A DNA stretch of 64,000 nucleotides. Source: Auritidibacter ignavus. Its GTDB lineage: Bacteria > Actinomycetota > Actinomycetes > Actinomycetales > Micrococcaceae. This document shows positions 6,067 through 45,229 of the stretch, in pieces; position 1 is the stretch's first letter; each line of letters begins with the position of its first letter. The notes under the pieces are model-generated. The model was not told where the DNA came from. It was given only the letters and a program-made list of their open reading frames with translations, and did no database searches. The stretch is from the NCBI RefSeq assembly GCF_003703835.1, contig NZ_RDQR01000010.1, positions 1 to 64,000 on the forward strand. The letters run 5' to 3'. The translations under genes and the position numbers were made by a program.

Positions 6067-7404
6067 TTAGCGACGAGTCGAGTCTTGGCTTCGGGCACCC
6101 TCTTTCTCGGCGGAATCGTGTGAGTCCTCGATGTCGTCCGGCGGGTCAATAATCGAGCCGGACTCGTTGACCACCTGTTGTGAGACCGGGGCGGAACGGC
6201 CGGACCGTTGGACGTCTTCCAGTCGGGTCTCGTGGGCCTGACGGATAATGCTGGACCATTGGTCTTTATGTTCGATCAGCTCGTCTAGGTATTTATACTC
6301 GACCCGACGGGCCTTTTCAGTCCACTCATCCATTTTCGCAGCGGCCTTCTCGCGCTCTTGCTCTGCAGTGGAGTCATCCAGCTTGGAATACCGGAAGGAG
6401 AACTTCTCCGCATTCTGCAATGCGATCAGCGCCTTGCCCTTCTTCGAGGTCAACGAGGTGACAACCACAATGAGCAGGATGGCAATAATAACCACCAACG
6501 ACATCTCGGTCGGAATTTCTTGAACCGGCACTGGTTCCCCACCGTTGATAAACGGCAAACTGTTCTCGTGGAGGGCGTGTAGCACCAGCTTGATACCGAT
6601 GAAGCCGAGAATGGCTGCCAAACCGTATCCCAAGTACACCAGACGGTCCAGCAAGCCATCGATCAGGAAGTACAGCTGGCGCAAGCCCATCAGCGAGAAA
6701 GCGGTGGCGGCGAAGACGATATAGGGCTCCTGGGTGACACCATAGATCGCGGGGATCGAGTCGAAGGCGAAGAGCACATCGGTGGCACCGATCGCGATCA
6801 TGACCAACAACATCGGGGTGATCATCAGCTTGCCACGTTCTTTAGTGAACAGTTTGTCCTGGCGATAATCGTGTGAGACCGGGAAAATCCGACGGGCGGT
6901 GCGCACCATAATGTTTTCGGCCTCATTGGACTTCTCGTCGGCCGAGGTCAATTCGCCCTTGAGTTGCTGGCCGGCCAGCAGAATCAGGAACAGACCGAAG
7001 ACGTAGAACACATCCGACCAGGCGTTGATCACGGCTGCGCCGAGGAGGATGAAAATCGTCCGGGAGATCAGCGCGAAGGTAATACCGAACAACAGCACCT
7101 TTTGTTGGTACTCGCGCGGTACCTGGAAGTTGCTCATGATGATCATGAACACGAACAGGTTATCGATCGATAGTGACTTTTCAAGTAAGAACCCGGTGTA
7201 GTACTCCACGGCGTGGGAGGTATCGCCGAAGAGGAAAAATACCAGGCCAAACAGCAACGCCAGTCCAATGTAAATGGAGGACCAAATCGCGGCTTCTTTG
7301 ATCGTGGGGGTATGGGCTTTCCGAGCGTGGGCAAAGTAGTCGAAAGCCAATAACCCCAGGATGATCGCAATGGTGACCAACCAGGTCACAAGGTTGATTT
7401 CCAC
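6067..7404 (-). CDS. TerC family integral membrane protein
   Basis: The protein has about nine hydrophobic segments and the TerC signature EKSLSIDNLFVF early, with a second acidic motif (ATDVLFAFDSIPAIYGV) later. The C-terminal 120 residues are charged and probably cytoplasmic. TerC relatives, including Alx and MntP-like exporters, are linked to manganese export or metal delivery to secreted proteins. The GTG at 7404 is chosen because aaaggagc sits 6 bases before it; the resulting 445-residue protein starts MEINLVTWL. A candidate manganese riboswitch precedes it. The tellurite-resistance label of the family need not apply. Confidence 0.85.
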   Translation of the reverse strand: MEINLVTWLVTIAIILGLLAFDYFAHARKAHTPTIKEAAIWSSIYIGLALLFGLVFFLFGDTSHAVEYYTGFLLEKSLSIDNLFVFMIIMSNFQVPREYQQKVLLFGITFALISRTIFILLGAAVINAWSDVFYVFGLFLILLAGQQLKGELTSADEKSNEAENIMVRTARRIFPVSHDYRQDKLFTKERGKLMITPMLLVMIAIGATDVLFAFDSIPAIYGVTQEPYIVFAATAFSLMGLRQLYFLIDGLLDRLVYLGYGLAAILGFIGIKLVLHALHENSLPFINGGEPVPVQEIPTEMSLVVIIAILLIVVVTSLTSKKGKALIALQNAEKFSFRYSKLDDSTAEQEREKAAAKMDEWTEKARRVEYKYLDELIEHKDQWSSIIRQAHETRLEDVQRSGRSAPVSQQVVNESGSIIDPPDDIEDSHDSAEKEGARSQDSTRR

Positions 7405-7440
7405 AGGGAAGCTCCTTTGAGGATACGAGAATGAATCACA

Positions 7441-7552
7441 AGTCTCTCCCACTTGAGCTGATGGTCTCTGCTCAAGCCTCGCGCCCGGTTGAGAATGATC
7501 TCCACGTGCTGACGTTCGCGAGAAAGATCGGGATACTCCCCTGTTCGTGGAC
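7441..7552 (-). promoter_or_regulatory. Candidate yybP-ykoY manganese riboswitch upstream of the TerC gene
   Basis: Reading the minus strand, three conserved blocks of this RNA class appear in order: GGGGAGUA (7534-7541), CGUCAGCA (7507-7514) and GAGACC (7463-7468). The last block lies in the loop of a perfect 7-bp hairpin, CTTGAGC/GCTCAAG (arms 7470-7476 and 7452-7458), which could compete with aptamer folding. The ribosome binding site follows at about 7411-7417. yybP-ykoY RNAs sense Mn2+ and commonly control TerC and MntP genes. The closing P1 stem is weak by eye, so a covariance search is needed. Confidence 0.65.
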
Positions 7553-7576
7553 TACTGTAGCATCTCGACGATGATA

Positions 7577-9721
7577 TTAGGCGTGTCCGGCTTGTTTCAT
7601 CTGACGCAGTTCTTTTTTGAGCTCCGCTACCTCGTCGCGCAGGCGCGCGGCAAGTTCGAACTGCAGATCTGTGGCGGCCTGATGCATCTGCTGGGACATG
7701 TTGTCGATCAAGTCCTGCAGATCCTTGGCCGGAAGGGCAGCAATCTTCACGGCCTGCTGGCCCTCACGATCGGCCTGTTGGGATTTCTGTTCATCGGTGA
7801 TCATCGAGGTGTAGCCACGGTGTCCCTCACCAAAATCAAAGCCGGCCTTGACCCCGCCCATGCCCGACAGGAAGTCTTCGGAGTCGGCATCCTCACGGGC
7901 CAGTTGGTCCGTAATGTCGGCAATGCGCTTACGCAACGGCTGCGGGTCGATACCGTGCTCGGTGTTATAAGCCTGCTGGATTTCACGACGACGGTTGGTT
8001 TCGTCGATAGCCTGTCGCATCGAGTCGGTGATTTTATCGGCGTACATATGCACCTGGCCGGAAACGTTGCGGGCGGCACGACCAATAGTCTGAATCAGCG
8101 AGGTGGTTGAGCGCAGGAATCCTTCCTTATCGGCGTCCAAGATTGACACCAGCGATACCTCGGGCAAATCCAAGCCTTCGCGCAAGAGGTTAATGCCGAC
8201 CAGCACGTCGAACGTGCCCTTGCGTAGCTGGGTCATCAGCTCCACCCGTTTGAGCGTGTCGACATCGGAGTGCAGATACTGGACCTTGACCCCGTGCTCG
8301 ATCAGGTATTCGGTCAGGTCTTCGGCCATACGCTTGGTCAGGGTAGTAACCAGCACGCGTTCGTCACGCTCGACCCGCTGGTTGATCTCGTCCATCAGGT
8401 CATCGATCTGGCCGTTGGTGGGCTTGACCACGACTTCGGGGTCGATGAGTCCGGTGGGTCGAATAATCTGTTCCACCACGCCGTCAGCTTGGGCCAGCTC
8501 GTAGGGGCCCGGGGTGGCCGACAGATAAATGGTTTGGCCGATGCGCTCGAGGAACTCATCCCATTTCAGTGGCCGGTTATCCAATGCTGAGGGCAACCGG
8601 AACCCGTGATCGACCAGGGTGCGTTTACGCGACATATCCCCTTCATACATTCCGCCAATTTGGGGCACGGTCACGTGGGATTCGTCGATGATCAACAAGA
8701 AGTCATCGGGGAAATAGTCGAGTAAACAGTGTGGAGCAGAGCCGGGACCACGGCCGTCAATATGGCGCGAGTAATTCTCAATCCCGTTGCAGTAGCCCAT
8801 TTGCTGCATCATTTCGAGATCGTAGGTGGTGCGCATCCGCAACCGTTGGGCCTCGAGTAACTTATCTTGGGCCTCTAACTCTGCCAGTCGCACGCGCAAT
8901 TCATCCTCGATGGACTCGATGGCCCGAGCCATCCGATCATCACCGGCCACGTAGTGGGAGGCCGGGAAGATGTACATCTCGTCTTCTTCCCGGATCACGT
9001 GACCAGTCAGCGGGTGCAGGGTCTGGATCGAGTCGATCTCATCGCCGAAGAATTCCACACGGACCGCAAGCTCTTCATACATCGGGATGATCTCTACGGT
9101 GTCGCCACGGACCCGGAAGGTGCCACGGTGGAAGTCGTGGTCATTGCGCACATACTGCATATTCACGAACTGACGCAACAATTCGTCCCGGTCCAGCTCT
9201 TGGCCCCGTTTGAGGGTGACCATCTGGCGGATATATTCCTCCGGGGTACCCAAACCGTAGATGCACGATACCGTAGAGACCACCACGGTGTCCCGGCGGG
9301 TGAGCAAAGCATTGGTGGCTGAGTGGCGGAGGCGTTCGACTTCCTCATTGATGGAGGAATCTTTTTCAATGAAGGTATCCGACTGCGGGACGTAGGCCTC
9401 GGGCTGGTAGTAGTCGTAGTAGGAAACGAAGTACTCGACCGCGTTGTGCGGAAGCAGGTCTCGCAATTCGTTGGCCAGCTGGGCGGCCAGAGTCTTGTTC
9501 TGGACCATCACCAGGGTGGGACGCTGAAGTTGTTCAATGGTCCAGGCCGCGGTCGCAGATTTACCGGTGCCGGTGGCCCCCATCAGCACCACGTCTTTTT
9601 CCCCGCCACTGACACGCTCAGCCAATTCGGCGATAGCACGTGGCTGATCGCCAGAGGGCTGATAGGGAGATTCCACCTTGAAGGGCGCAACTTGCCGGGT
9701 GATTTCTTGGGCCAGACTCAT
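7577..9721 (-). CDS. uvrB: UvrABC excision nuclease subunit B
   Basis: The 714-residue protein recognises damage with UvrA and then recruits UvrC for nucleotide excision repair. It has Walker A GATGTGKS at residues 48-55, the beta-hairpin region [12 protein letters not shown] at 101-112, helicase motifs SATPGPYE and QTIGRAARN, and a C-terminal UVR domain ([22 protein letters not shown]) that binds UvrC. The length is slightly above the usual 660-700. The ATG at 9721 follows a modest agagg. The TerC gene follows on the same strand after the riboswitch region. Confidence 0.97.
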
Positions 9722-44812: not shown

Positions 44813-44886
44813 GCGGATGTAGCTCAGCTGGCTAGAGCACCACCTTGCCAAGGTGGGGGTCGCGAGTTCGAATCTCGTCATCCGCT
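44813..44886 (+). tRNA. tRNA-Gly (anticodon GCC), first copy
   Basis: The acceptor arms GCGGATG and CATCCGC, the D-arm, the anticodon loop TTGCCAA and the T-loop GTTCGAATC fold as a standard 74-base tRNA with anticodon GCC. CCA is not encoded. It is identical over its full length to the copy at 45156. Confidence 0.96.
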
Positions 44887-45155: not shown

Positions 45156-45229
45156 GCGGATGTAGCTCAGCTGGCTAGAGCACCACCTTGCCAAGGTGGG
45201 GGTCGCGAGTTCGAATCTCGTCATCCGCT
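45156..45229 (+). tRNA. tRNA-Gly (anticodon GCC), second copy
   Basis: This gene is identical to the tRNA-Gly at 44813 across all 74 bases. Unlike the first copy, the discriminator T is followed by CCA (45230-45232) in the DNA. It is the last tRNA of the cluster. Confidence 0.96.

Follow-up and report, generated by a model that had tools for sequence, protein, structure and literature searches.

The yybP-ykoY class of riboswitches is already in print, and so are a terC leader in C. glutamicum and, in a review, the three-way junction. The alx and mntP leaders of E. coli are described as manganese riboswitches (PMC9603457), and alx is annotated as a TerC-family Mn exporter gene. The leaders of L. 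lactis yybP, of X. oryzae and of E. coli mntP carry the loops L1 and L3 and the helices P1.1, P1.2, P3.1, P3.2 and P4 (PMC6754395), all of which they share with the leader described here, but they also have a helix P2 and a four-way junction, whereas our leader is without P2. The Mn/Ca riboswitch of S. pneumoniae mgtA is, like our leader, of the yybP-ykoY class and has a three-way junction, but it acts on transcription and precedes an ATPase gene, according to the cited part of a review (PMC9495176). For cg2157 (terC) of C. glutamicum, an Rfam yybP-ykoY leader is on record, with a transcript start mapped by RNA-seq 6 nt inside it (PMC3890552).

The leader described here precedes a TerC family gene of Auritidibacter ignavus, on the minus strand of a stretch of 64,000 nucleotides that is referred to as the window. 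It is almost certainly a member of the yybP-ykoY class, and membership taken together with manganese-responsive control of the TerC gene is highly probable. Like the alx leader it is matched by models made from actinobacterial leaders, has no room for P2 and precedes a TerC-family gene, and the Rfam profile RF00080 misses both. The alx leader differs by its longer P4 and by its host, start region and platform; it is also reported to respond to pH (PMC9603457). Very likely the window leader has the P2-less, three-way junction form found in alx. A new kind of junction was considered and rejected, since alx is without P2 too and a three-way junction is described for S. pneumoniae in the review (PMC9495176). 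The part that may be new is the strand-swapped expression platform discussed below. No paper on the expression platform in Actinomycetota was found among the matches listed, which is a weak negative, some papers on the class and on Alx lying outside the search.

Architecture of the leader and its relatives

In the window uvrB lies immediately upstream of the TerC gene, and its stop codon ends at 7577. The features of the leader and of the start region are collected in Table 1. Elsewhere in the window, two tRNA genes of one cluster (44813-44886 and 45156-45229) do not differ in their printed sequence.

Table 1. Positions of the TerC gene, its start region and the elements of its leader in the window
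Feature	Position	Strand	Basis or remark
TerC family gene, GTG start	6067..7404	-	PF03741, E 6.3e-49; start matches relatives
CUUCCCUG, between Shine-Dalgarno and start, proposed half of the OFF helix	7404..7411	-	predicted pairing; final G opens the GTG codon
Shine-Dalgarno AAAGGAG	7412..7418	-	by consensus
P1.1 3' strand CUUGU	7438..7442	-	covariation
GAGA of L1 (3' side), with which the true third block GAGAC begins	7443..7446	-	invariant in 17 leaders
P1.2 3' strand GGGA	7447..7450	-	covariation; RNAalifold
P4, perfect 7-bp hairpin with decoy GAGACC (7468-7463) in its loop	7452..7476	-	RNAalifold
P3.1 3' strand CGCGAG	7478..7483	-	covariation
CCGG, L3 3' side	7485..7488	-	invariant in 17 leaders
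P3.2 hairpin GAGA-UCAU-UCUC	7491..7502	-	seen in sequence; covaries in relatives
L3 CGUCAGCACG, contains CGUCA (7514-7510)	7505..7514	-	CGUCA invariant in 17 leaders
P3.1 5' strand CUCGCG	7517..7522	-	covariation
7-nt joining strand without hairpin, at the position of P2 in four-way-junction members	7523..7529	-	RNAalifold, spacing
P1.2 5' strand UCCC	7530..7533	-	covariation; RNAalifold
L1 5' side GGAGUA	7534..7539	-	invariant in the 17-leader alignment except one G in one row
Proposed OFF-state strand CAGGGGAG, partner of 7411-7404	7536..7543	-	predicted duplex, -17.4 kcal/mol, p 0.025
P1.1 5' strand ACAGG, switch helix	7540..7544	-	covariation
Candidate -10 hexamer TACAGT	7554..7559	-	inferred; predicted RNA start ~7547

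TerC homologues were found in 58 of the 59 genomes tried, and of 30 loci retrieved from them 23 show a common leader before the TerC gene. It runs (A/G)GGGAGUA, usually UCC, a helix strand, CGUCA, a hairpin, usually CCGG, the other strand of the helix, an arm that varies and GAGAC. Six loci were without the motif (L009, L020, L021, L023, L027 and L028), while L024 offered too little DNA. Seventeen of the 23 motif-bearing leaders, recognized by pattern and by eye, were aligned with MAFFT (alignment A2); L004, L005, L007, L026, L029 and L030 were left out, three of which (L007, L026 and L029) had been misaligned in an earlier alignment, A1.

When A2 was scored for a preset structure consisting of P1.1, P1.2, P3.1 and P3.2, 90.3% of the cells were paired, against 33-47% when the partners were slid. 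Both-sided changes occurred in 15 of the 25 pairs, and none of 500 shuffles reached any of the five measures. RNAalifold, to which the structure was not supplied, returned the same helices from the 17 leaders minus a few end pairs, and in addition P4, with compensatory changes; it found no P2 helix between P1.2 and P3.1 across these leaders. In a larger alignment of 80 matches from named loci (A3), 91.5% of the cells were paired, a figure that leans towards the model to which this alignment was fitted. A3 includes two weak reverse-strand chance matches of ~15 bits, L177 and L168. A single P1.1 pair is G-C in 30, C-G in 22, U-A in 15 and A-U in 6 rows of this model-biased alignment. By comparison of sequences, L1, L3, P1.1, P1.2, P3.1, P3.2 and P4 are thereby established, as is the link to genes for TerC or P-type cation ATPases described below.

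The role of L1 has been published (PMC6754395). In the window its two sides are GGGGAGUA at 7541-7534 and GAGAC at 7446-7442, and the flanking helices P1.1 and P1.2 covary. Likewise, CGUCA of L3 (7514-7510) is invariant in the 17 leaders and is flanked by P3.1 and P3.2, which also covary; the A of this CGUCA is presumably the adenosine contacting Mn2+. P1.1 of the window, ACAGG/CUUGU, has five pairs, one of them G-U; where the relatives form a sixth pair, the window has A-G. P1.2 is UCCC/GGGA, and in P3.1 two of nine pairs are A-G. The conserved 3' block is GGGAGAGACUUGU at 7450-7438 on the minus strand; P1.1 extends to 7438 and the block thus lies partly outside the interval 7441-7552 that an earlier, sequence-only reading had marked as the element. 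The feature that defines the four-way-junction subtype, a P2 between P1.2 and P3.1, is replaced by the 7-nt joining strand, and on its predicted structure the window leader is not placed in that subtype. The folding energy of the single window sequence is unremarkable (z -0.69), so stability is no argument for the RNA.

Beside CGUCA, P3.1 has tandem G-A/A-G in some leaders and Watson-Crick pairs in others (A2 columns 39-40 with 81-82). The former are perhaps sheared pairs that keep the shape of the helix at the docking site.

Covariance models and the Rfam profile

Two covariance models, R1 and R2, were made from actinobacterial leaders only, and R2 was built without the window. On the window, R2 scored 58 bits (E 2e-13), which was its sole match in the 64 kb at E<=10. 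Also in the whole genome the window leader was the sole significant R2 match, the next best having an E of 0.93. This leave-one-out result bears out the sequence-only reading in its main point, a yybP-ykoY class leader before the TerC gene, and its suggestion that the actinobacterial form may depart from the textbook one agrees with the lack of P2. That reading had also named relatives without the blocks or covarying stems as what would speak against it; in the relatives the blocks are conserved and the stems covary. The RF00080 search that it had proposed as a check gave no riboswitch in the window leader, either at the gathering cut-off or at E<=10. Matches to mgtC_leader, mir-129 and snoTBR5 in the window were below their own cut-offs and were taken as chance.

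The same Rfam profile gave no matches at E<=0.001 in the genome of the window, and among the relatives it was above the cut-off in none of 59 and matched at E<=10 in 15 of 59. It also had no match at E<=10 in the alx leader of E. coli K-12 (L200:169-303). Since RF00080 thus misses a published manganese riboswitch, its miss on the window refutes nothing, and for the P2-less form its cut-off fails to separate members from non-members. It recognizes the K-12 mntP leader (L201:262-358), unlike that of the window, with 41.6 bits, which is under the cut-off of 45; in this alignment the profile leaves the 5' strand (the start of P1) unpaired and expects a P2 hairpin. Applied to 18 short leaders found by R1, it matched two of them weakly, at 16.7 and 14.8 bits, and had no match in 16, that of the window included.

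The actinobacterial models behave in the opposite way. E. coli alx, an experimentally shown member, was scored 44.9 bits by R1 and 44.2 bits by R2, the latter being the model that also matches the window. The P2-bearing mntP leader got 13.1 bits from R1 and nothing at E<=10 from R2, so the two models cover one form of the class; the training set of R1 consisted of P2-less leaders, and others may be missed. Among 296 genomes sampled from the phylum, at least 13 had RF00080 matches (one above the cut-off) and at least 30 had R1 matches at E<=0.01, and none was in both lists; these counts are lower bounds because both searches scored only part of the candidates. The two sets of leaders are linked, since nine of 14 loci with RF00080 matches also match R1 at E<=10, with a maximum of 30.3 bits. 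At L210 a weak RF00080 match lies on the same strand as the R1 match.

The distance between GGGAGUA and CGUCA is 18 nt in alx and 19 nt in the window, which is too short for P2. Among the 78 matches from named loci, 74 have a spacing of 16-19 nt and four have one of 20-22 nt. At 57 loci from whole genomes the spacing is 15-20 nt in 54 and 29-35 nt in three (L100, L101 and L104). L104 has an evident P2 hairpin, and the absence of P2 is thus not universal among the R1 matches.

The start region and the proposed expression platform

The start region was compared with both strands of P1.1 in 71 leaders, with 200 dinucleotide shuffles for each. The set comprises the window and 70 of the 78 matches, six matches downstream of the matched gene and two far upstream being excluded; in L177, L180 and L182 the chosen start codon is probably too far downstream. 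Pairing of the start region with the 3' strand of P1.1 (design A) had p<0.05 in 30 of the 71 leaders, mainly in Corynebacterium, Cellulomonas and their kin. Pairing with the 5' strand and L1 (design B) had p<0.05 in 12, namely the window, four Yaniella, three Enteractinococcus, isolate KG10, one Rothia, Sediminivirga and Brevibacterium. One or the other design was present at this level in 42 of 71 and neither in 29, counts in which the leaders are not independent because the species are related. For the window, the p-value of 0.025 is uncorrected; design A, tried there as pairing between the Shine-Dalgarno sequence and the P1.1 3' strand, was rejected (p 0.995).

In a competition among all 14-nt stretches of the aptamer, the start region found its best partner on one of the P1.1 strands in 48 leaders out of 71, where 14.3 were expected by share. 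This was the 3' strand in 36 and the 5' strand in 12. The best partner was on the 5' strand of P1.1 or on L1 in nine out of nine leaders from the window, Yaniella, Enteractinococcus and KG10, whereas in the Corynebacterium leaders other than cg2157 it was on the 3' strand in 11 of 13. The two analyses disagree for Sediminivirga and one Rothia, which have p<0.05 for design B but pair best with the 3' strand, and for Brevibacterium, which has p<0.05 for design B and its best partner elsewhere. Where the relatives have AAGGGAG/CUCCCUU, the window has CAGGGGAG/CUUCCCUG, with G-C in place of A-U at one position. At a second position of the OFF helix, a C has become U in the window, giving G-U.

The minimum-energy fold of the window leader contains the OFF helix, give or take an end pair, with P1.2, P3.1, P3.2 and P4 kept. 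In a model that ignores Mn2+ and tertiary contacts, imposing the aptamer fold carries a cost of 9.5-11.2 kcal/mol, which varies with the 5' end chosen. CUUCCC then opens partly to fully, while in the Shine-Dalgarno sequence two or three G/A, GG included, stay paired, and so does GTG when the 5' end is set at 7552. Since Shine-Dalgarno bases stay paired, full opening of the start region is not predicted.

These calculations make an expression platform working through CAGGGGAG/CUUCCCUG plausible, and we lean slightly towards a translational ON switch of this kind. At high Mn2+ the legs L1 and L3 would dock around the ion, so that the weak switch helix P1.1 is held closed. When Mn2+ is low, CAGGGGAG, drawn from the 5' strand of P1.1 and from L1, would instead pair with CUUCCCUG between the Shine-Dalgarno sequence and GTG, and this helix would keep ribosomes off the TerC start. 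By locking P1.1, Mn2+ would free CUUCCCUG. Judged by the predicted pairings, it seems to be the opposite strand of P1.1 that serves in Corynebacterium and Cellulomonas. In their design, the Shine-Dalgarno sequence would mimic the 5' strand of P1.1 and pair with the 3' strand; in that of the window, a CU-rich stretch before the start would mimic the 3' strand and invade both P1.1 and the metal-site loop L1. The chances are about even that the platform is strand-swapped in the genus of the window, Yaniella and Enteractinococcus relative to Corynebacterium, Cellulomonas and others.

The aptamer might instead sense Mn2+ and control transcription, with Rho loading on the untranslated leader at low Mn2+, or act through RNA decay, the helix at the start region being secondary. 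In E. coli mntP, Rho and the riboswitch are reported to act together (PMC11647493), and the 29 leaders without a clear translational design would fit such control. Against it stand the preference of the start region for the P1.1 strands and the result that no intrinsic terminator was found within 7350-7650, and transcriptional control is considered rather unlikely here.

As for the start of the transcript, TANNNT occurs 55 times at 19-22 nt upstream of GGGAGUA in the 71 leaders, against 35 times over all remaining upstream positions. In the window this would be TACAGT (7559-7554), from which the RNA would begin just before P1.1. A promoter consensus scan of the window picks a competing site at 7600-7571, and the start at ~7547 is a candidate for that reason.

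Downstream genes, ligand and alternative readings

At E<=0.01, R1 matches 110 of 198 sampled genomes of the order. Seventy of the 80 named TerC loci have the match 5-110 nt upstream of the matched gene. In six, all of them Kocuria, it was found only downstream of the matched gene, where it perhaps precedes a second terC, and the element was absent from the available DNA of four loci (L144, L149 and L155 from Rhodococcus, and L119 from a Micrococcus MAG). At two Kocuria loci there are two copies of the element ~1.2 kb apart (L126, 149-265 and 1348-1476; L135, 126-251 and 1346-1476), each apparently before one of two adjacent genes.

When the 57 loci with the best whole-genome matches were inspected, the window's included, the next gene encoded TerC at 48 and a P-type cation ATPase (PF00690 with PF00122) at six, while two matches were at a contig edge and one was unreadable. 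TerC or a P-type cation ATPase thus follows at 54 of 57 loci; for the TerC protein of the window, handling of Mn2+ is assigned by homology. That one aptamer precedes two unrelated families of cation-handling membrane proteins agrees with a metal sensor. The ATPase loci are from six other genomes of the phylum (L083, L087, L092, L102, L103 and L104). At several of them CCGAAGG or CCGGAG, directly ahead of the start codon, answers the P1.1 strand CCUUCGG or CCUCCGG, a pattern like that of design A. In L186 and L189, which are RF00080-type leaders from elsewhere in the phylum, a GGCCAAAGGUCU stretch and then a T run were seen by eye past the aptamer; this looks like a terminator competing with P1.1, in which case the phylum would also have leaders of transcriptional design.

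Mn2+ is very probably the physiological ligand. The matches that precede P-type ATPases, which we take to be of a kind able to move Ca2+, could also point to Ca2+ or alkaline pH as the physiological signal, with Mn2+ not the ligand alone. The alx leader is reported to respond to alkaline pH as well (PMC9603457), and the pneumococcal aptamer binds Ca2+ tighter than Mn2+ according to the cited part of the review (PMC9495176). Activation by Mn2+ is, however, reported for both (PMC9603457; PMC9495176), and the TerC proteins of B. subtilis are described as having Mn efflux activity, one of them being under a Mn riboswitch (PMC10550928). A signal other than Mn2+ alone is thus held to be improbable.

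The sequence-only reading had followed the textbook model, with three conserved blocks in order before the TerC gene (GGGGAGTA at 7541-7534, CGTCAGCA at 7514-7507 and GAGACC at 7468-7463, minus strand), the last in the loop of a hairpin that would be the alternative fold. A search of both strands of the 64-kb window found the ordered set once, and GGGGAGTA with a CGTCA after it was absent from 50 mononucleotide shuffles (one strand); the first two blocks are therefore real and not chance. The third was misassigned. Both GAGACC and the perfect 7-bp hairpin around it, CTTGAGC/GCTCAAG (7476-7470 with 7458-7452), are present, but in the P3.2-P4 region GAGACC was found in one of 71 leaders, the window alone. 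The true third block is the GAGAC within GGAGAGAC, which is shared by all 17 aligned leaders and lies after the hairpin in the window (7446-7442). RNAalifold makes the hairpin the junction arm P4, with compensatory changes across the 17 leaders, in place of an alternative fold. The closing P1 stem had been called weak because the wrong 3' strand was used; with the correct one P1.1 closes as ACAGG/CUUGU. A third block and alternative fold at this hairpin are accordingly hardly credible. That the blocks are chance and no functional RNA is present has next to no probability given the covariation and the leave-one-out E of 2e-13, even with no Rfam match and an ordinary folding energy.

With membership in the yybP-ykoY class and Mn2+ as the probable ligand, the TerC proteins of many Actinomycetota are placed under likely Mn2+ control. 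The current RF00080 overlooks the P2-less form, E. coli alx included, and counts of manganese riboswitches made with it in these bacteria are for this reason likely too low. In the window, Mn2+ would switch on translation of a TerC protein that may be a Mn2+ exporter or a supplier of the ion to secreted enzymes. If the strand swap is true, one aptamer would be coupled to translation in two opposite ways within one phylum, and the strand of the metal site would double as the repressing strand. The two platform designs would then be a ready test of how an aptamer can be wired differently to translation.
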